60,193 nucleotides of DNA from Verrucomicrobiia bacterium (GTDB lineage: Bacteria > Verrucomicrobiota > Verrucomicrobiia > Limisphaerales > CAIMTB01). The stretch spans positions 1 through 60,193 of the forward strand of contig JAHCBA010000039.1 of the NCBI GenBank assembly GCA_019634625.1, in the 5' to 3' direction. Made by a program: the position numbers and the translations under genes. A model generated the notes under the pieces. The model was not told where the DNA came from and made no database searches. It saw only the letters and a list, made by a program, of their open reading frames with translations. Every line of letters starts with the position of its first letter. Within the stretch, counting starts at the first letter, position 1. Of the stretch, positions 51,325 to 60,193 are shown piece after piece.

Positions 51325-52002
51325 ATGGCAGTAGCCTCGTCTTCCATGCCTCGGGCGGTTGTTGAGCACCTGGTGCGCCAGGAGGTGTACCGGCGTTTGG
51401 GGAAGCCTTTGCCGCGGTCGGCGGGGGGGCCGAGTCCGCTGGTGGTGAACGTGAGTGCGCGGCATTGTCACCTGACGCAGGCGGCGGTGGAGGCGTTGTT
51501 CGGGGTGGGGCATTCGTTGACGCCGTACAAGTGGTTGTACCAGGAGGGGCAGTTTGCGGCGCGGGAGACGGTGACGTTGATCGGGCCGCGGAGCCGGGTG
51601 ATTTCGAACCTGCGGATCCTGGGTCCGTGCCGGAGTTTGAACCAGGTGGAGCTGGCCTATACGGATTCGATCTCGCTGGGGTTCGAGGTGCCGTTGCGGA
51701 GTTCGGGGAACATCCAGGGGACGCCTGGCTGCATGCTGATGGGGCCGGCGGGGTTTTTCGAGATGAACGAGGGGGTGATCCGGGCGCTGCGGCATGTGCA
51801 CATGCATCCGGACGACGCGGTGCATCACAAGGTGAAGAACGGGGAGACGATGCGGTTGCGGGTGGGCGGCGGGTGCGGCGTGGTTTTCGAGAAGCTGCTG
51901 GTGCGGGTCGATCCGAGTTTCAAGCTGGAGGTGCACATCGACACCGACGAGGGCAACGCGTGCCATTTGCAGCCGGACACGCCCTGCGAACTGCTGCGGT
52001 AG
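51325..52002 (+). CDS. pduL: PduL-type microcompartment phosphotransacylase
   Basis: PduL converts acyl-CoA plus phosphate to acyl-phosphate inside the shell, recycling CoA. The protein has 225 residues from ATG 51325-51327; ATG 51346 is possible and would keep the helix. The N-terminal amphipathic helix AVVEHLVRQEVYRRLG (11-26) looks like an encapsulation peptide. PduL features: VNVSARHCHL (His47, His49, zinc and catalytic histidines), LTPYKWLYQEGQFA, and RHVHMHPDD (His157, His159, His161). The C-terminal half has the internal duplication LLVRVDPSFKLEVHIDTDE. It is the first gene of the operon. Confidence 0.94.
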   Translation: MAVASSSMPRAVVEHLVRQEVYRRLGKPLPRSAGGPSPLVVNVSARHCHLTQAAVEALFGVGHSLTPYKWLYQEGQFAARETVTLIGPRSRVISNLRILGPCRSLNQVELAYTDSISLGFEVPLRSSGNIQGTPGCMLMGPAGFFEMNEGVIRALRHVHMHPDDAVHHKVKNGETMRLRVGGGCGVVFEKLLVRVDPSFKLEVHIDTDEGNACHLQPDTPCELLR

Positions 52003-52132: not shown

Positions 52133-52429
52133 ATGAGCGAAGCCATCGGCATGATCGAAACGAAGGGCTTCACCGGCAGCGTCGAGGCGACCGACGCGAT
52201 GGTGAAGGCCGCCAATGTAAGCGTGGCCCGGACGATCCCCATCGGGGGAGGGCTGATGACCGTCGTGGTGCGGGGCGACGTGGCCAGCGTGAAGGCCGCG
52301 GTGGATGCCGGATCACGGGCGGCGGCCAAGGTTGGCGAGCTGGTGAGTGCGCATGTGATTGCGCGTCCCCACGACGACCTGGTGAAGGGATTCCTGGCGG
52401 AGTCCGGGGCGGTCAAGGCGGCGAAGTGA
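52133..52429 (+). CDS. BMC-H hexameric shell protein 1
   Basis: The protein has 98 residues, the standard Pfam00936 single-domain size. It starts [27 protein letters not shown] and has the [14 protein letters not shown] helix. The pore loop is IGGGL (37-41), glycine-rich, which usually gives a narrow pore. [10 protein letters not shown] is the C-terminal edge motif, followed by a short Lys-rich tail. BMC-H hexamers tile the shell facets. A 14-bp string GGAACGCGGAGCGG lies 89 nt upstream. Confidence 0.96.
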
Positions 52430-52498: not shown

Positions 52499-52774
52499 AT
52501 GTCTCAAGCCATCGGCATGATTGAAACCAAGGGTCTGTGCGCGCTTCTGGAGGCGACGGACGCCGCGCTGAAGGCGGCGCACGTGACCTTCACCGGCTGG
52601 GAGAAGGTGGGCAGCGGATTTGTGACCGCGTTTTTCCGGGGCGACGTGGCCAGCGTGAAGGCCGCGGTGGACGCGGGCGCGGCGGCGGCCTCGTCGATCG
52701 GGCAGATTGTCTGTGTGCAGGTGATTCCGAGGCCGCACGAGGGATTGAGCGGCCTGGGGAAGTGGCTGCAGTGA
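52499..52774 (+). CDS. BMC-H hexameric shell protein 2
   Basis: The protein has 91 residues. It shares [11 protein letters not shown] and the [19 protein letters not shown] helix with BMC-H1, but its pore loop is VGSGFV (37-42), a serine-containing pore typical of shells that pass small aldehydes or acids. Its lumen-facing helix contains CALLEATDAALKAAHV. The tail GLGKWLQ differs from the other BMC-H proteins. It lies 69 nt after BMC-H1 and 124 nt before the kinase. Confidence 0.96.
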   Translation: MSQAIGMIETKGLCALLEATDAALKAAHVTFTGWEKVGSGFVTAFFRGDVASVKAAVDAGAAAASSIGQIVCVQVIPRPHEGLSGLGKWLQ

Positions 52775-52898: not shown

Positions 52899-54092
52899 AT
52901 GAAGATTCTCGTCGCCAATCTGGGGTCCACGTCGCTGAAGTGGCGCCTGTTCGAGTTTTCGGACGGGGGCGAGCGGATGCTGCACAAGGGGGGCTTCGAG
53001 CGGGTGAGCGATTATCCGCGGGCGATCGAGGACTGCCTTGGGCAGTTGCGGGAGGGGGGGCATATCACGGACGAGCGGGAGTTGGCGGCGGTGGGGTTCA
53101 AGACGGTGATGGCGCGGGGGGTGGATGGCTGTGTGCGACTGGACGAGGCGGCGGTGCGGGCGATGGAGGCGTACAACGCGATCGCGCCGGCCCACAATCC
53201 TCCGTACATCTCGGGGGTGCGACTCTTCGCGCAACGGCTTCCGGAGGTGCCGTTGATCGGGTTGTTCGAGACGGCCTTCTACCAGTGGATTCCCGAGCCG
53301 GCGCGACGTTACGCGGTGCCCGGGGCGTGGCATGAGGCGGGGGTGCGGCGCTGGGGATTCCATGGGGCCAGCCACAAGTTCATCGCGGAACGCTCGGCGG
53401 AACTACTGGGGCGTCCGGACGTGGCGGAGCGGGCGAGGCGGCTTTATGTGGACGGGGGGAGCACGGCGGTGACGGGGCCGGAACTGCGGGTGATCTCGTG
53501 TCATCTGGGCGGGAGTTCGAGCGTGACGGGGATCCGCAACGGGGTGGCGATTGGGAACAGCCTGGGAATGAGTCCGCAGTCGGGGATTCCGCACAACAAC
53601 CGGGTGGGCGATCTGGACGCCTTCGCGGTGCCGTTCGTAATGCGGACGCTGGGATTGAGTCTGGAGGAGGTCGAACGGCAGTTGTGCAAGGAGTCGGGAT
53701 TGAAGGGGGTGAGCGGGGTGTCGAACGACGTGCGGGACATTCTGGCGGCGGCCGGGCAGGGCGACGCGGGGGCGAAGCGGGCGATGGAACTTTTTGTGCA
53801 CGAGGTGCGGCGATGGATCGGCGCGTATCTCGTCGAGCTGGACGGGGCGGATGCCGTGGTGTTCACGGCGGGGATTGGTGAGAACCAGGGCGGTCTCCGG
53901 GCGGCGATCGTCTCCGGGATGGAGAAGCTCGGGCTGGTGCTGGATGGGGAACGCAACGCGGCGGCGCGGGGGGTGGAGGCGGAGGTGTCGGCGGCGGGTT
54001 CGCCGGTGCGGCTGCTGGTGATTCCGACCAACGAGGAATGGGTGGTGGCGCGGGAGGCGAAGCGCTTTCTGGAACGGGGATCCGGAGGATGA
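52899..54092 (+). CDS. Acetate/propionate-kinase-like protein of the microcompartment
   Basis: The protein has 397 residues from ATG 52899-52901. It is expected to convert acyl-phosphate plus ADP to the acid plus ATP. ASKHA kinase elements are present: VANLGSTSLKW, IAPAHNPP, GFHGASHKFIAER (His155, the catalytic-site histidine), VFTAGIGENQGG and VIPTNEEWVVARE. However, usual active-site residues differ: the HRxVHGG arginine position is Lys68 (GFKTVMARG), the catalytic Asp position is Glu124 (LFETAFYQ), and the HLGNG asparagine is Gly205 (HLGGSS). Arg235 is kept. Lactyl-phosphate is the likely substrate by context. Activity is probable but not certain. Confidence 0.88.
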   Translation: MKILVANLGSTSLKWRLFEFSDGGERMLHKGGFERVSDYPRAIEDCLGQLREGGHITDERELAAVGFKTVMARGVDGCVRLDEAAVRAMEAYNAIAPAHNPPYISGVRLFAQRLPEVPLIGLFETAFYQWIPEPARRYAVPGAWHEAGVRRWGFHGASHKFIAERSAELLGRPDVAERARRLYVDGGSTAVTGPELRVISCHLGGSSSVTGIRNGVAIGNSLGMSPQSGIPHNNRVGDLDAFAVPFVMRTLGLSLEEVERQLCKESGLKGVSGVSNDVRDILAAAGQGDAGAKRAMELFVHEVRRWIGAYLVELDGADAVVFTAGIGENQGGLRAAIVSGMEKLGLVLDGERNAAARGVEAEVSAAGSPVRLLVIPTNEEWVVAREAKRFLERGSGG

Positions 54093-54217: not shown

Positions 54218-54502
54218 ATGCCACAGCAAGCCATTGGATTGATTGAAACCCGCGGTCTGGTCGCCCTCGTGGAGGCGACCGACGCCATGCTCAAGGCCGC
54301 CAATGTGGAACTGGCGGGGCCGATGACCCAGGTGGGCAACGCCCTGGTGACGGCCGCCGTGGTGGGCGACGTCGCGGCGGTGAAGGCCGCCACCGACGCC
54401 GGGGCCCAGGCGGTGAAAGCCATCAAGGGCGAACTGGTGAGCGTGCACGTGATTGCCAGGCCGCACGCCGACACCGACCAGGTTCTGCCGAGGAAGAAGT
54501 AG
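54218..54502 (+). CDS. BMC-H hexameric shell protein 3
   Basis: The protein has 94 residues with AIGLIETRGLVALVEATDAMLKAANV. The pore loop is VGNALV (39-44), different from the GGG and GSG loops of its siblings. It ends in HVIARPHADTDQVLPRKK. A clear ribosome-binding site AGGAGAGA lies 7 nt upstream. Its stop TAG is immediately followed by the ATG of the first BMC-P. Confidence 0.96.
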   Translation: MPQQAIGLIETRGLVALVEATDAMLKAANVELAGPMTQVGNALVTAAVVGDVAAVKAATDAGAQAVKAIKGELVSVHVIARPHADTDQVLPRKK

Positions 54503-54820
54503 ATGTTTCTCGCCCGGGTCGAAGGTCTGGTGGTCTGCACCAAGAAGGACGCGGCCATGAGCGGCCGGAAGCTGCTCCTGTTGCGGCCCCTGTTGGTGGA
54601 CGAGAAGGACCCGACACAGTTCCGGCCGGGAATGAACACGGTGGTGGCGGTGGACAGCGTGGGGGCGGGGCAGGGGGAGACCGTGTTGTTCTGCCAGGGC
54701 AGCAGCGCGCGGCTGGCCCCGGGGATGAAGGAAGCCCCGGTGGACGCCGTGATCATCGGGATTGTCGATTCGGTGGATGTGTTCGGCAGGCAGATTTATT
54801 CGGCGCGCGCGGCGTCATGA
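54503..54820 (+). CDS. BMC-P (EutN/CcmL) pentameric vertex protein 1
   Basis: The protein has 105 residues. BMC-P pentamers cap shell vertices. It begins MFLARVEGLVVCTKKDAAMSG, has the KLLLLRPLLVDE strand and the VVAVDSVGAGQGETVLFCQGSSAR core typical of EutN/CcmL, and ends PVDAVIIGIVDSVDV. It has no gap to BMC-H3, so the two are probably cotranslated. It is longer than BMC-P2 because of the KDPTQFRPG loop and C-terminal tail. Confidence 0.96.
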   Translation: MFLARVEGLVVCTKKDAAMSGRKLLLLRPLLVDEKDPTQFRPGMNTVVAVDSVGAGQGETVLFCQGSSARLAPGMKEAPVDAVIIGIVDSVDVFGRQIYSARAAS

Positions 54821-54887: not shown

Positions 54888-56399
54888 ATGAGCACTTTGA
54901 ACGAGACATTGATACGCGAGGTGGTGACCGAGGTGCTGTCGCGGCTGGGTTCCGGGGGGCGCCCCGGTTCCGGCGATGGGAGCGGCGGCGGCGGGGCGGG
55001 AGCCGGGACGTGCCGCGTGGACGGTGGAGCGGGGGGCGGAACGGGCTCGGCGAAGGGGCGTCGGGGGAGCTTCGGAGTGTTCCAGGACGCCGATGAGGCC
55101 TGCGCGGCGGCGCACGAGGCGTATCTCCAGCTTTCCGAGAAGGGCGTGGCCGGGCGGAACAAGGTCATCGGGATCGTCAAGGACCTCTGCGAACGCAACG
55201 CGGTCGAGTGGGGACGGATCGAGCTTGAGGAGACGAAGATCGGGCGGCTGGATCACAAGATCGAGAAGCTGAAGGCGCAGCGCGGCATTCCCGGGGTGGA
55301 GTTTCTGAATCCGTACGGATTGAGCGGCGATCACGGGATCACCCTGGAGGAGTATGCCCCGTTCGGGGTGGTGGGGGCGGTGACGCCGAGCACGCATTCG
55401 ATCCCGACGATGGCGTGCAACATCATCAGCCTGGCGGCGGCTGGGAACTCGGCGGTGTTCAATGCCCATCCCTCGGCCTACCGGTGCGCGGTGACGGCGG
55501 CGCGGGAATTCAACCGGGCGATCCATCGGGAACTGGGGATCGAGAACCTGGCCTGCATCGTCGAGCCGCCGACCCTGGAATCCTTTGCCGCCATCGGGAG
55601 GCACGAGGCGGTGAAGCTGTTGTGCGTGACGGGGGGCCCGGGGGTGGTCAAGGCGGCCATGGCCAGCGGCAAGCGGGCCATCTGCGCGGGCCCCGGCAAT
55701 CCGCCGGTGCTGGTGGATGGGACGAGTTGCCTGGACAACGCCGCGCGTTGCGTGGTGGCGGGGGCGGCGTACGACAACAACCTGCTTTGCATCGGGGAGA
55801 AGGAGGTCTTCGTGCTCGACGCCGTGGCCGATCGGTTGCTGTCGGCCCTCGAACGGCACGGGGCGCACCGGTTGAACGGGGAGCAGGTCGAAAGGCTGAC
55901 CCGGGCCGCCTTTGTATTTTCGGCGGGACAGGGGGCGGGCTGTCCGCATCCGGTGGTCAACCGGGACCTGGTGGGGCGCGATCCGGCGGTGCTGGCCCAG
56001 GCGGCCGGGGCGTCGGTGCCGGCGGGGACGCAACTGCTTTTTGCCGAGACGGCGGCCGACCATCCGTTTGTGGACGAGGAACAGATGATGCCGTTCCTGC
56101 CGGTGGTGCGGGTCCGTTCCGTCGAGGAGGGGGTGGCGTTGTCGAAGCGGGCGGAGAAGGGGTACAAGCATTCGGCGATGATCCATTCGCACGATGTGGC
56201 GCACATGACGGCGATGGCGCGGGCCCTGGAGACGACGTTGTTCGTGAAGAACGGCTCGTGCCTGGCGGGGCTGGGCAGCGGCGGCGAGGGGTACGCGAAT
56301 TTCAGCATTGCGACGACCACCGGCGAGGGCATCTGCAATCCGCGGACGTTCACCCGTGTGCGGCGCTGCGTGATGGTGGACAAGCTGAGAATCTTTTAG
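54888..56399 (+). CDS. CoA-acylating aldehyde dehydrogenase of the microcompartment
   Basis: The protein has 503 residues. It oxidises aldehyde (lactaldehyde by context) to acyl-CoA with NAD+. The N-terminus has helix TLIREVVTEVLSRLG (7-21) followed by a Gly-rich linker (22-57), the layout of an encapsulation peptide joined to the catalytic domain. The PduP/EutE core has VVGAVTPSTHSIPTMACNII, the LLCVTGGPGVV segment and catalytic Cys301 in YDNNLLCIGEKEVFV. The C-terminal EGICNPRTFTRVRRC is also typical. It is placed between the first and second BMC-P genes. Confidence 0.95.
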   Translation: MSTLNETLIREVVTEVLSRLGSGGRPGSGDGSGGGGAGAGTCRVDGGAGGGTGSAKGRRGSFGVFQDADEACAAAHEAYLQLSEKGVAGRNKVIGIVKDLCERNAVEWGRIELEETKIGRLDHKIEKLKAQRGIPGVEFLNPYGLSGDHGITLEEYAPFGVVGAVTPSTHSIPTMACNIISLAAAGNSAVFNAHPSAYRCAVTAAREFNRAIHRELGIENLACIVEPPTLESFAAIGRHEAVKLLCVTGGPGVVKAAMASGKRAICAGPGNPPVLVDGTSCLDNAARCVVAGAAYDNNLLCIGEKEVFVLDAVADRLLSALERHGAHRLNGEQVERLTRAAFVFSAGQGAGCPHPVVNRDLVGRDPAVLAQAAGASVPAGTQLLFAETAADHPFVDEEQMMPFLPVVRVRSVEEGVALSKRAEKGYKHSAMIHSHDVAHMTAMARALETTLFVKNGSCLAGLGSGGEGYANFSIATTTGEGICNPRTFTRVRRCVMVDKLRIF

Positions 56400-56429: not shown

Positions 56430-56705
56430 ATGTTGCTGGCCCGAGTCGAAGGCAACCTGACCGCCACCCGGAAGCATCCGAGCTTCGAGGGCTGGCGGCT
56501 TGTGGTGTGCCAGCCGATCGATGCCGGGGGCCGGCCCGAGGGCGTGCCGCAGGTGGCCATCGACCCGCTTGGGGTCGGGCTGCACCAGAGGGTGGTGTTG
56601 TCCAGCGATGGCGCGGCGGCCCGCAAGACGGTGGGCGATGAGCGGAGCCCGGTCCGCTGGCTCATCGCCGGGATCGTGGACGAGGCCGCGGGGAAGGGAC
56701 CGTGA
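56430..56705 (+). CDS. BMC-P (EutN/CcmL) pentameric vertex protein 2
   Basis: The protein has 91 residues. It begins LLARVEGNLTATRKHPSFEGWRLVVCQPI, with VAIDPLGVGLHQRVVLSSDGAAARKTVG and a closing LIAGIVDE, as in EutN/CcmL. The gene follows the dehydrogenase by 30 nt and precedes BMC-P3 by 4 nt. Confidence 0.95.
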   Translation: MLLARVEGNLTATRKHPSFEGWRLVVCQPIDAGGRPEGVPQVAIDPLGVGLHQRVVLSSDGAAARKTVGDERSPVRWLIAGIVDEAAGKGP

Positions 56706-56709
56706 CGTC

Positions 56710-57024
56710 ATGCGACTGGGCAAGGTCATAGGCCGGGTGACGTTGAGTCGTGTGGTTCCTGAACTGGTCGGGGCGCGCTGGCTGGTGGTGAACCCATGCA
56801 ACCGTCAGCAGTTTCCCAACGGGAGCGAGGCGCCGGACGGAATGACCACCGAGCCGAGCCTGGTCGTGTACGACAATCTGGGCGGCGGCGTGGGCGATCT
56901 GATCGGGTTCGTCGAGGGACGCGAAGCGGCCCAGCCCCTGGACCCGCTGGCGCCGATCGACGCCATTCACGCCGCGCTGGTGGACCATGTGTTTCATCGT
57001 CCGTTTCAAGGTCCGCCGCCCTGA
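56710..57024 (+). CDS. BMC-P (EutN/CcmL) pentameric vertex protein 3
   Basis: The protein has 104 residues from ATG 56710-56712. It begins RLGKVIGRVTLSRVVPELVGARWLVV and has LVVYDNLGGGVGDLIGFVEGREAAQP, the EutN/CcmL fold with a larger insertion (NRQQFPNGSEAPDGMTTE). The final part reaches IDAIHAALVDHV. With three BMC-P genes and no trimeric BMC-T gene, the locus matches the planctomycete-verrucomicrobial shell type. Confidence 0.94.
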   Translation: MRLGKVIGRVTLSRVVPELVGARWLVVNPCNRQQFPNGSEAPDGMTTEPSLVVYDNLGGGVGDLIGFVEGREAAQPLDPLAPIDAIHAALVDHVFHRPFQGPPP

Positions 57025-57036
57025 CCGCCATTCACC

Positions 57037-58113
57037 ATGCCAACAGTCATTACCGCGAAGGATGTCGAGGCCCTGATCGGCCGGGGGGAGGATCCCGCGA
57101 CCCTGCCTGCGGACGCCATCCTCACTCCGTCGGCCCGCGATGTCCTCCGGGACTGGCGCGGACGGAACGGGGCGGGAGCGTCCGGAGGGGGAGCGGGATC
57201 GGGGGAGCCGTTGAGCCAGACGGCCAGGGCGTTTCCGAAGCCGGTTTCGGCGGCCAGTTCGCCGGAGGAACTCGAGGCCTTTTTCCGGTCGGGTCCGATG
57301 GAGACGCTGAAGGAGCAGATCTGCGACATCGGCCGGCGGCTCTGGCAGCGGGAATACGTGGACGGCAACGGGGGCAACATCGCGATCCGGGTGGCGGACG
57401 ATCTGGCGCTGTGCACGCCGACGCTGGTCAGCAAGGGCTTCATGAAGCCGGCCGACATGTGCCTGGTGGATCTTGAAGGGACCCAGAAGGCGGGCCGGAA
57501 GAAGCGCACCAGCGAGATCCTGATGCACTTGCAGATCATGAAGCGGCAGCCGCGGGCCAAGGCCACGGTGCATTGTCACCCGCCCTACTCGACCGGGTTC
57601 GCGGTGGCGGGGGTCGCGCCTCCGACCTGCATGATCCCGGAGTACGAGGTGTTCGCGTCGGTGGCGGTGGCGCCGTACCGGACGCCGGGGACGCCGGAGA
57701 TGGGGCAGTTGGTGGCGGAGCTGGTGGACAAGCACAACACCGTGCTGATGGCCAACCATGGGGTGGTGGCCTGGAGCCATCTCGACGTCGAGGACGCCTA
57801 TTTCAAGATGGAGATCCTCGAGGCCTACTGCCGGACGATCCTGGTGTCGGCCCAGTTGGGAAAACCGCCCAACACGATGACCCCGGCCCAGCTCCAGGAT
57901 CTGTTGAAGATCAAGCAGGGGCTCGGCATCCCGGACCCGCGGCACGGGCTCAAGGAATGCGAGTTGTGCGACAACAACGACTGGCGTCCCGGGGTGGTCT
58001 GCGCGCTGCCCGCCAAACCGAGCGAGCCGGCAGCGCCTGAGGCCGGCCTGGATCCGGAAGCGGAAGCCGTGGTCAAGGCGGTGACGGATCAGATCCTGCG
58101 GCGGTTGGGATGA
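57037..58113 (+). CDS. Class II sugar-phosphate aldolase (fuculose/rhamnulose type) with terminal address helix
   Basis: The protein has 358 residues. It is expected to cleave a deoxyketose 1-phosphate into DHAP and lactaldehyde. Zinc and catalytic residues are visible: Glu160 in RTSEILMH, His179 and His181 in VHCHPPYS, His241 in ANHGVVAWS, with GNGGNIAIR for the phosphate. It carries an N-terminal extension of about 85 residues (KDVEALIGRGEDPA, then a Gly-rich linker) and a C-terminal tail whose last 15 residues (344-358) form an amphipathic helix ending LRRLG. Cys308 and Cys311 (CELC) precede the tail. Both ends could be targeting signals. Confidence 0.92.
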   Translation: MPTVITAKDVEALIGRGEDPATLPADAILTPSARDVLRDWRGRNGAGASGGGAGSGEPLSQTARAFPKPVSAASSPEELEAFFRSGPMETLKEQICDIGRRLWQREYVDGNGGNIAIRVADDLALCTPTLVSKGFMKPADMCLVDLEGTQKAGRKKRTSEILMHLQIMKRQPRAKATVHCHPPYSTGFAVAGVAPPTCMIPEYEVFASVAVAPYRTPGTPEMGQLVAELVDKHNTVLMANHGVVAWSHLDVEDAYFKMEILEAYCRTILVSAQLGKPPNTMTPAQLQDLLKIKQGLGIPDPRHGLKECELCDNNDWRPGVVCALPAKPSEPAAPEAGLDPEAEAVVKAVTDQILRRLG

Positions 58114-58115
58114 AG

Positions 58116-58164
58116 CCTGAGGCCTGAGGGCTGAGGCCTGAAACCTGAAACCTGAAACCTGAAA
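58116..58164. repeat. 7-bp tandem repeat CCTGAGG/CCTGAAA
   Basis: Seven units: CCTGAGG, CCTGAGG, GCTGAGG, then four CCTGAAA. The array begins 3 nt past the aldolase stop and ends 46 nt before the next start. The switch from AGG to AAA units suggests two expansion events. Confidence 0.8.
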
Positions 58165-58209
58165 CCGGAGACCGGAGAGGGGGAGTGGTGAGGTGGTGGG
58201 GTGCAAATC

Positions 58210-59505
58210 ATGAAGTCGCTTGATGCCAAGCTGGCGGAGATCAGGGCGAATCCCGGTTCGCGGGCGTTCATTCTGGCGGACGCGAAGGATGCCGACATGG
58301 CATTCGGGGTGCGGGCCCCGGGGCCACGCTCGTATCTGTCGCGGCGGGGGGCGAGGCCGGCCCAGTTTTCGCCGGAGGTGTGGCGTCGGGAGGAGTTCGG
58401 GTACCGGAACCTGCCCGAATTTCTCGATGTGATCCGGGAGGTCGTCGAGCAGGGGGTGGTGGACATCATGTTGATGTCTGCCTACGTCAACGAGCAGCTG
58501 GCGATCAAGGAGGGGCTGTTCCGGAATTCGGCGGTCACTCCAGCGGCGCGGGCCAACGACACCACGGACGTCTGGGCGGTGCGGGAAGGCTGTTATACGA
58601 GGGAACCGTCCCAGCCGTTCCGGTCCGCCAGCATCGATCAGATCCAGTGCGGACAGGTGGAGTGCGCGCGGGATGGCGATTCCTTTCCCGGGGCCAATCT
58701 CGGGCTGTATTCGGTCACGTTCGTCAACGAACTCGATCAGGACCGGGAGGCGTTGCTCTGGTACAAGGCGTTCCGGGAAGAGGCCGAGCGGAAGCGGTTC
58801 CGGCACTTCCTTGAGGTGTTCGATCCCAACGTCGAGAGCGGGATCGCCCCGGACAAGCTGGGAGCCTTCATCAACGACAACATTCTGCGGACGCTGGCGG
58901 GGGTGCCGGAGGCCGGGCGGCCGGTGTTCCTGAAGATCGTCTATCACGGGCCCCGGGCGATGGAGGAACTGGCCCAGTACGATCCGAACCTGGTGGTGGG
59001 GATTCTGGGGGGGGGCGCCGGAACCACGTACGATGCCTTCCGGCTCATCCACGACGCCCAGAAGTATGGGGCCCGGGTCGCGCTGTTCGGACGCAAGATC
59101 AACAACGCCGAACATCAACTGGCGTTCATCGAGATGCTGCGGCTCATCACCGACGGGCGGCTCGGTCCGGACGAGGCCGTGCGCGCCTACCACGGCGTGC
59201 TTCAGGCCCGGGGCATCCGGCCGCACCGGGATCTGGAGGCCGACCTTCAATTGACCGACCAGGCGATGAGCTACGATGGCAGCGCCGCGCGACGGTCCAC
59301 GGGGCCGGTTCGCGACAATCCGGTGCCGACGCTGCCGGCCCGCGCCGGGGACAAGCCGGTCGTATCGGGAGGCGCAGGCGGCGCTTCTGAGGGACAGGAT
59401 GAGGCATGGCCGGTGTTGTCGGGAGGCGGCCCTGACTTCGGCCGGATGACTTCCGCACAGCGACAGGCCTACGATGCCTGGCGGTTGAAGCGTCGGTTCG
59501 GGTAA
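58210..59505 (+). CDS. Unassigned beta/alpha-barrel-like protein of the microcompartment operon
   Basis: The protein has 431 residues from ATG 58210-58212; a GTG at 58201 is possible. I do not recognise a characterised enzyme. It starts with SLDAKLAEIRANPGSRAFILADAKDADMAFG, and includes VVDIMLMSAYVNEQLA, VTFVNELDQDREALLWYKAFREE, VFLKIVYHGPRAMEELAQYD and GILGGGAGTTYDAFRLIHDAQKYGARVALFGRKINNAEHQ, a pattern of alternating strands and helices like a class I aldolase/DhnA TIM barrel. After residue about 370 a Gly-rich linker leads to a final helix (AQRQAYDAWRLKRRFG) that could be an address tag. It is last in the operon, after the aldolase. A role in sugar or lactaldehyde metabolism is inferred from context only. 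Confidence 0.75.
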   Translation: MKSLDAKLAEIRANPGSRAFILADAKDADMAFGVRAPGPRSYLSRRGARPAQFSPEVWRREEFGYRNLPEFLDVIREVVEQGVVDIMLMSAYVNEQLAIKEGLFRNSAVTPAARANDTTDVWAVREGCYTREPSQPFRSASIDQIQCGQVECARDGDSFPGANLGLYSVTFVNELDQDREALLWYKAFREEAERKRFRHFLEVFDPNVESGIAPDKLGAFINDNILRTLAGVPEAGRPVFLKIVYHGPRAMEELAQYDPNLVVGILGGGAGTTYDAFRLIHDAQKYGARVALFGRKINNAEHQLAFIEMLRLITDGRLGPDEAVRAYHGVLQARGIRPHRDLEADLQLTDQAMSYDGSAARRSTGPVRDNPVPTLPARAGDKPVVSGGAGGASEGQDEAWPVLSGGGPDFGRMTSAQRQAYDAWRLKRRFG

Positions 59506-59525: not shown

Positions 59526-59879
59526 ATGATTCTTCTCCGCTGGGTGCTGGGATTGATCGCCGCCGGGCTGGGAGGCGGATTTCTGTTCCTGATCGTCCTG
59601 TCGAATGCCTTCCGGAAGAGCTTCGGCGCCTCGACCCACGGCCTGCTTTTCGCGGGGTTGCCGGTGGTGGCGCTCGGATTGCTGCTCGGGGCGGTTGTCC
59701 TTCCGGGCAACCGGATGCTGCTTCATGTCGCCGCGTTGGCTGCCGTGGGATTGGTGTCGTTCTGCATCTGGCAGATCGTGACCGAATCCGCGGTCGTGCT
59801 GTGGTTTGCATTGGCCTATCTGGCCGTCTGGTTTGTCTTCTACTGGCACGCCGCGTGGCGCATCTCGCCGCCGGCCTGA
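59526..59879 (+). CDS. Small four-helix membrane protein
   Basis: The protein has 117 residues. Four hydrophobic segments are evident, at about 5-25 (LLRWVLGLIAAGLGGGFLFL), 42-60, 65-83 and 90-108 (VVLWFALAYLAVWFVFYW). No domain is recognised. It starts 20 nt after the barrel gene and may be cotranscribed with the microcompartment operon, although nothing shows a functional link. Confidence 0.7.
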   Translation: MILLRWVLGLIAAGLGGGFLFLIVLSNAFRKSFGASTHGLLFAGLPVVALGLLLGAVVLPGNRMLLHVAALAAVGLVSFCIWQIVTESAVVLWFALAYLAVWFVFYWHAAWRISPPA

Positions 59880-59936
59880 GACAGGGAATGGCCGCTTGGA
59901 CGCCCTGGCCGAGGGGGACGGGTGGTGGGAGCCGGG

Positions 59937-60193
59937 GTTGATGAGAGGCAGGGGCGTGGTGTTGGGGAGGGGCGGGTGAAAATGGACGGAATTATCGTGC
60001 ATATGCACGAAGTTTGAGTTGGTGGAGAGGAGGGGACGTGTGGGAGTTGGAGTTGGGGTTGATGAGAGGCAGGGGCGGGGTGTGGGGAGGGGCGGGTGAA
60101 AATGGACGGAATGATCGTGCATATGCACGAAGTTTGCGTTGGTGGGGAGGAGGGGACGTGTGGGAATTGGGGTTGATGAGAGGCAGGGGCGTG
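59937..60193. repeat. About 120-bp tandem repeat with 16-bp palindrome, cut by window end
   Basis: ATGAGAGGCAGGGGCG occurs at 59941, 60062 and 60176. Two full units each hold the perfect palindrome TCGTGCATATGCACGA, at 59995-60010 and 60115-60130. The flanking GGGGAGGGGCGGGTGAAAAT and GAGGGGACGTGTGGGA are repeated too. No gene was seen in this 314-bp end segment. Confidence 0.8.

Follow-up and report, generated by a model that had tools for sequence, protein, structure and literature searches.

In published descriptions, PVM microcompartments (BMCs) are built around a single class II aldolase that handles fucose and rhamnose (PMC4207490, PMC8217296). SPU-type BMCs are known to contain class I aldolases (PMC8217296), and full-text literature searches, whose scope did not include the original PVM paper and supplementary tables, returned no description of such an enzyme in PVM compartments. 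Here, we examined the last gene of a PVM-type operon in a 60,193-nucleotide stretch of Verrucomicrobiota DNA (referred to below as “the window”). We consider it probable that this gene encodes a class I ketose-1-phosphate aldolase of an unnamed LacD/YihT/DhnA-type family that was recruited to the compartment as a second enzyme producing an aldehyde. Computational support comes from the fold class, conserved residues, the gene context of relatives, conservation of a C-terminal tail, and co-occurrence with shell genes.

The operon has the gene content of a PVM-type BMC, with all features on the forward strand. It encodes a PduL phosphotransacylase (51346..52002; PF06130), three BMC-H shell proteins named from operon position and sequence (52133..52429, 52499..52774, and 54218..54502), an acetate-kinase family protein, AckA (52899..54092; PF00871), three BMC-P shell proteins (54503..54820, 56430..56705, and 56710..57024; PF03319), the aldehyde dehydrogenase of the BMC (54888..56399; PF00171), and the class II aldolase that is the known PVM signature enzyme (57037..58113; PF00596). 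The latter is followed, after a 96-bp gap holding a perfect CCTGAAA heptamer array of 4.3 copies (58137-58166), by the gene of interest (58210..59505; 431 amino acids plus stop). An in-frame GTG at 58201 is likewise open, upstream of the ATG at 58210, which is the likely start because homologues begin MKSLD. The reading frame is undisrupted, the 6.7-Mb genome has one copy of it, and public genome contigs contain more than 570 related stretches, nearly all from Verrucomicrobiota; identity to the window protein is 65 to 84% for most of the best 80. Given this intact frame and its close homologues, the 431-residue gene of the original prediction is real, and its placement as the last gene is correct for the conserved operon: the next open reading frame (59526-59879), for a small membrane protein, was unmatched in 80 homologous loci. 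Downstream of the operon, at the window end, lies a 120-bp tandem repeat of 2.2 copies with 92% match (59934-60191).

The earlier impression that the protein carries no nameable family signature was borne out. No Pfam family was found for the protein at an E value of ≤1 or for its core even at ≤10, NCBIfam gave only subthreshold matches to a DhnA-type aldolase, and a PDB sequence search returned no relative. The DeoC/LacD class I aldolase family PF01791 matched 0 of 24 members of the protein's own family even at an E value of 10, and in a Pfam scan it does match FbaB, LsrF, YihT, and the DhnA-type aldolase L118. The class II family PF00596 (FucA/RhaD/AraD) matched the upstream neighbour but not the protein. 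By tblastn, the protein shares 28% identity with DhnA-type proteins over part of the barrel only; one of these, when scanned, was a DeoC/LacD aldolase by Pfam. Comparison of profiles connected the protein family with L118 (E value of 4e-7) and LsrF (4e-4) and gave no match to the class II aldolase GatY. Comparisons with Escherichia coli FbaB and YihT by hhalign gave nothing, which is weak evidence because the profile is shallow (Neff of 2.1). In a PDB profile search, a designed TIM barrel ranked first and the aldolases were not significant (LsrF E value of 0.11), and of three scans of viral contigs for diverse homologues, the first added one fragment only and the other two gave none. Given the negative PF01791 and hhalign results, homology to class I aldolases rests on the fold and one distant profile match, and we predict that the protein represents an unnamed class I aldolase family that is not filed under PF01791 but acts like a member.

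An AlphaFold2 model of the core (residues 1 to 356; 58210..59277), a segment also delimited by full-length homology to tail-less, non-BMC relatives, is of moderate quality (78 sequences; pTM of 0.71 and pLDDT of 68; residues 28 to 66 and 119 to 130 poor). It forms a predicted (beta/alpha)8 barrel of eight alternating strands and helices, as the phrase “barrel-like” had anticipated, with strands in barrel order at residues 21 to 25, 86 to 89, 110 to 114, 164 to 170, 198 to 204, 240 to 243, 262 to 265, and 289 to 296. A full-length model built from 47 close homologues had a pLDDT of 55 and a pTM of 0.44, and only its C-terminal helix was used. The top Foldseek matches to the core were LacD tagatose-1,6-bisphosphate aldolases, followed lower by MJ0400, LsrF, archaeal fructose-bisphosphate aldolase (FBA), and sulfohexulose-1-phosphate aldolase. 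With VIA-align 2, whose top Z scores lie about 1 apart and are mostly tied, sulfohexulose-1-phosphate aldolase (8tnf) scored 19.4, LacD 18.5, and YihT 18.2, and many class I FBP aldolases scored 16 to 18. LsrF and archaeal FBA were also among the rows listed at Z scores of 16 to 19, all of which were class I aldolases; the first nonaldolase row was HMG-CoA lyase at 15. In the fold search that had been proposed as a check, nearly every top match was a class I Schiff-base aldolase, nothing matched an unrelated family with confidence, and the class assignment is well supported at the level of the modeled fold.

The candidate active site fits this class. In class I aldolases, the Schiff-base lysine lies on strand 6. 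Strand 6 of the model (residues 240 to 243, FLKI) carries an invariant lysine, Lys242 (58933..58935), which the L118 profile alignment places on the lysine of LIKTFYTG and which is the predicted Schiff-base residue. The same alignment places the GILGGGAGTT loop after strand 7 (residues 264 to 273; 58999..59028) and GRKI after strand 8 (residues 294 to 297; 59089..59100) on the phosphate-binding region, so both are predicted phosphate sites. Glu202 on strand 5 (FLEVF; 58813..58815) is also invariant, and the conserved motif DAKDADM, where strand 1 ends (residues 24 to 30; 58279..58299), may be compared with AVDQREAM in YihT. Lys242, Glu202, the glycine loops, and the GR pair are invariant in both tailed and tail-less forms of the protein. 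This pattern bears on the idea that the barrel is catalytically dead and serves as a cargo scaffold: a structural role would be compatible with the conserved tail and the strong conservation of the sequence, but invariance of these residues with and without the tail, together with the metabolic neighbours of the tail-less relatives (below), makes it extremely unlikely.

Those relatives supply metabolic context. Homologues in other families of the phylum are 50 to 63% identical, end at about residue 356, and lie away from shell genes. At 18 of 18 tail-less loci (a plain count with no formal null), a PfkB-superfamily kinase and/or a D-lyxose/D-mannose isomerase is encoded within about 2.5 kb, and several of the kinases are PF25270 “prokaryotic ketohexokinase.” The common denominator would be a PfkB kinase that phosphorylates a ketose and an aldolase that then splits it; these neighbours thus point to cleavage of a ketose-1-phosphate to DHAP and an aldehyde. 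This coupling of kinase and aldolase is supported by gene context. Phosphorylation at C1 by these bacterial kinases, and with it the specificity for ketose-1-phosphates, is what we infer; a haloarchaeal ketohexokinase that makes fructose-1-phosphate is known experimentally (PMC11519228).

Individual cassettes differ in their likely sugars. Mannosidase-type genes (GH38, and GH2 with a mannosidase Ig domain) near the tail-less aldolases of L123 and L125 suggest mannose use, and an aldehyde dehydrogenase adjoins the aldolase of L131. In L160, from a member of the window's order, the gene row consists of a sodium:solute symporter, an SftI-like sulfoquinovose isomerase (NF048012 match at an E value of 7e-29, below the curated cutoff), a PfkB kinase with sulfofructose kinase as its top PDB match, the tail-less aldolase, and an aldehyde dehydrogenase. 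L137 also carries an SftI-like isomerase, and class II FBA-type aldolases occur in the L137 and L136 cassettes. The cassettes L160:1616-8498 and L137:5946-10712 look like possible uncharacterised pathways for sulfoquinovose or related sugars. One genome, G286, has four tail-less paralogues (L124, L136, L137, and L120); the three examined differ in their kinase and isomerase neighbours, which suggests that the paralogues are specialised for different ketoses.

This context also bears on whether the class I aldolase fold performs other chemistry here, as an LsrF-like thiolase, a transaldolase-type enzyme, or an HMG-CoA-lyase-like enzyme. LsrF is indeed among the sequence and fold matches, and HMG-CoA lyase reached a Z score of 15. 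Release of an aldehyde from a ketose-1-phosphate, however, fits the kinase and/or isomerase neighbours at all 18 loci and the aldehyde dehydrogenase that adjoins in two cassettes, and we regard such other chemistry as very improbable. In suggesting an additional enzyme, the original prediction had offered a second aldolase or an isomerase, with a scaffold as a further option; fold comparison and gene neighbourhoods together favour the aldolase and speak against the other two.

What distinguishes the window protein from these relatives is its C terminus. The core is followed by a variable Gly/Pro/Ala-rich linker (residues about 357 to 398; 59278..59403), the length of which varies strongly between homologues, and by a conserved tail that is a putative encapsulation peptide (residues 400 to 431, WPVLSGGGPDFGRMTSAQRQAYDAWRLKRRFG; 59407..59502). 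The last ~32 residues are conserved as WP....G.PDF..MTS.QR.AYD..RL.R.FG, and the full-length model places a helix at residues 415 to 430 (pLDDT of 75 to 82). The helical moment of the window tail peptide exceeds that of shuffles (P = 0.04). Of the earlier description of a Gly-rich linker and an amphipathic helix, the Gly/Pro/Ala-rich linker and the conserved, predicted helical end broadly hold, and amphipathicity is modest. The tail was found in 77 of 80 homologues (the best 80 of more than 570), and a search of 20 relatives' genomes gave no credible match on any other protein. The form with core, linker, and tail occurs in the window's order and in some Opitutae-labelled contigs; sequences of the tail-less clade do not carry the tail, and in a midpoint-rooted tree, the tailed sequences form one clade nested among tail-less sequences (support of 0.79).

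Within the window's order, the protein tracks the shell genes. It is present in 40 of 58 genomes, of which 38 also have BMC-P, compared with 4 of the 18 genomes without the protein (Fisher P = 3e-8, uncorrected for relatedness); 14 genomes have neither. The two genomes with the protein but without BMC-P are drafts, and in one of these the protein is a contig-edge fragment. This strong co-occurrence, named earlier as a check, extends to gene order: among the 62 loci for which 2.6 kb or more of upstream sequence was available, 52 have a class II aldolase gene just upstream on the same strand, 8 to 1,645 bp away. The remaining 10 either carry the gene at another place or gave no class II aldolase in the upstream position. 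Of these exceptional tailed loci, six adjoin Khk or PfkB, three of the six also having a lyxose isomerase, and 8 of 8 genomes searched that have a relocated tailed gene keep three BMC-P genes. Two relocated copies have additional or different neighbours. At L036:5343-9196, the genes that come after the tailed aldolase encode an FAD-linked oxidase (glycolate/lactate oxidase type), an Fe-S protein, and GlpX, a set that would suit a pathway in which a hydroxy-acid product is oxidised. The tailed copy at L047:8788-9933 lies outside the BMC locus; the gene immediately upstream of it encodes a GFO/IDH/MocA oxidoreductase, and a DeoR regulator and an FGGY kinase are encoded nearby in place of a PfkB kinase.

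The strongest argument for a targeting signal is that relocated copies keep the tail in genomes where the shell is also retained, and the conserved terminal sequence probably sends the enzyme into the protein shell. A cytosolic aldolase, with a tail for oligomerisation or some other interaction, operon linkage through co-regulation, and an aldehyde that diffuses to the BMC, would accommodate the copies that lie far from the BMC locus and a tail that is longer and more polar than classic encapsulation peptides as generally known. We judge it distinctly unlikely, since this tail does not occur in the tail-less clade, is conserved beyond a variable linker, and is kept after relocation in shell-retaining genomes. 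An encapsulated aldolase would not, for all that, be a universal BMC part. The expectation of an undescribed BMC component was supported within the order, where shell genes co-occur strongly, but outside the order the protein has tail-less relatives that are not linked to the shell genes, and many shell-bearing genomes have no homologue. Because of the unlinked tail-less relatives and the many BMC genomes without the protein, we regard it as recruited, lineage-specific cargo and not as a core PVM component.

A further question is which sugar phosphate an encapsulated class I aldolase would cleave. It could share the classic PVM substrates, with one aldolase each for L-fuculose-1-phosphate and L-rhamnulose-1-phosphate, both yielding L-lactaldehyde. 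The class II aldolase gene as its immediate upstream neighbour in 52 of 62 loci, the lack of a lyxose isomerase in the window genome, and the report that fucose and rhamnose are both processed by the PVM BMC (PMC4207490) fit such a division. However, the lyxose/mannose isomerase or ketohexokinase genes beside tail-less and relocated tailed copies point to D-ketoses with fructose-like stereochemistry, and many PVM genomes of the class lack the protein, so the class II aldolase suffices there. We therefore consider shared classic substrates unlikely.

Sugar supply and NAD recycling in the window genome itself were also surveyed. D-Lyxose isomerase was rejected as a partner there, being absent from this genome and from 55 of 58 genomes of the order. 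For Khk, the genome gave a single match, a divergent copy with a ParB-like gene next to it; across the order, Khk (PF25270) was not significant as a genome-level partner (P = 0.08), and most genomes match it. A lactate/malate dehydrogenase has been proposed to recycle NAD in PVM compartments (PMC4207490). A gene for this enzyme occurs in 28 of 80 homologous loci (including L009, L015, and L058); in the loci checked, it sits between the class II aldolase and the tagged aldolase gene and accounts for most of the ~1-kb gaps there. It is missing from the window (58114-58209), and the window genome has only a 25% identical relative.

In the mechanism that we propose, a sugar would be isomerised to a ketose in the cytosol and then phosphorylated at C1. 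The C-terminal tail would dock the aldolase in the shell interior. There, Lys242 would form a Schiff base with the ketose-1-phosphate, held by the glycine loops after strands 7 and 8, and cleavage between C3 and C4 would release DHAP and a short aldehyde; the sugar would determine whether this is lactaldehyde, glycolaldehyde, or glyceraldehyde. The resident aldehyde dehydrogenase, PduL, and acetate-kinase homologue may then turn this aldehyde into acyl-CoA, acyl-phosphate, and acid. We offer, as a real but tentative possibility, that in one Verrucomicrobiota order the PVM BMC is a two-input organelle, receiving aldehydes from L-fucose and L-rhamnose and also from D-ketose-1-phosphates (possibly those of deoxy- or sulfo-sugars) by way of a tagged enzyme, a class I aldolase from a new family, with a new type of tail that was kept after the gene moved to a separate sugar operon. 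A second tagged aldolase suggests that a fucose/rhamnose-type organelle could take a second group of sugars. If so, the substrate range of PVM compartments would be wider, and a new enzyme family would gain a testable function. It would also be a case in which a cytosolic enzyme was recruited to an organelle by gain of a tail, with tailed and tail-less sister clades available for comparison.

Compared with known systems, the protein is closest in fold to the LacD, YihT, and sulfohexulose-1-phosphate aldolases (class I, PF01791), with which it shares a predicted (beta/alpha)8 barrel, a candidate Schiff-base lysine on strand 6, a glutamate on strand 5, and GR after strand 8, and its relatives likewise occur in isomerase-kinase-aldolase cassettes. 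It differs from them in having only 9 to 12% identity, no PF01791 match, a longer strand 1-2 region, and other residues on strand 4. The best sequence-level match is to DhnA-type class I aldolases (archaeal FBA, MJ0400, and LsrF) across strands 6 to 8, including the lysine and both phosphate loops, but pairwise identity is about 28% over part of the barrel, and the N-terminal part has no significant match. With the PVM class II aldolase (PF00596), it shares an operon, a proposed role in aldehyde release within the shell, and a helix-like tail at the end of the protein, yet the two families are unrelated (PF00596 does not match the tagged aldolase) and the tail sequences differ. The DeoC aldolase of SPU-type BMCs (PF01791) belongs to another family, the PF01791 profile of which does not match the protein, and to another BMC type. 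What would be new relative to these systems is the recruitment of an unnamed aldolase family as a second signature-type cargo with its own tail.
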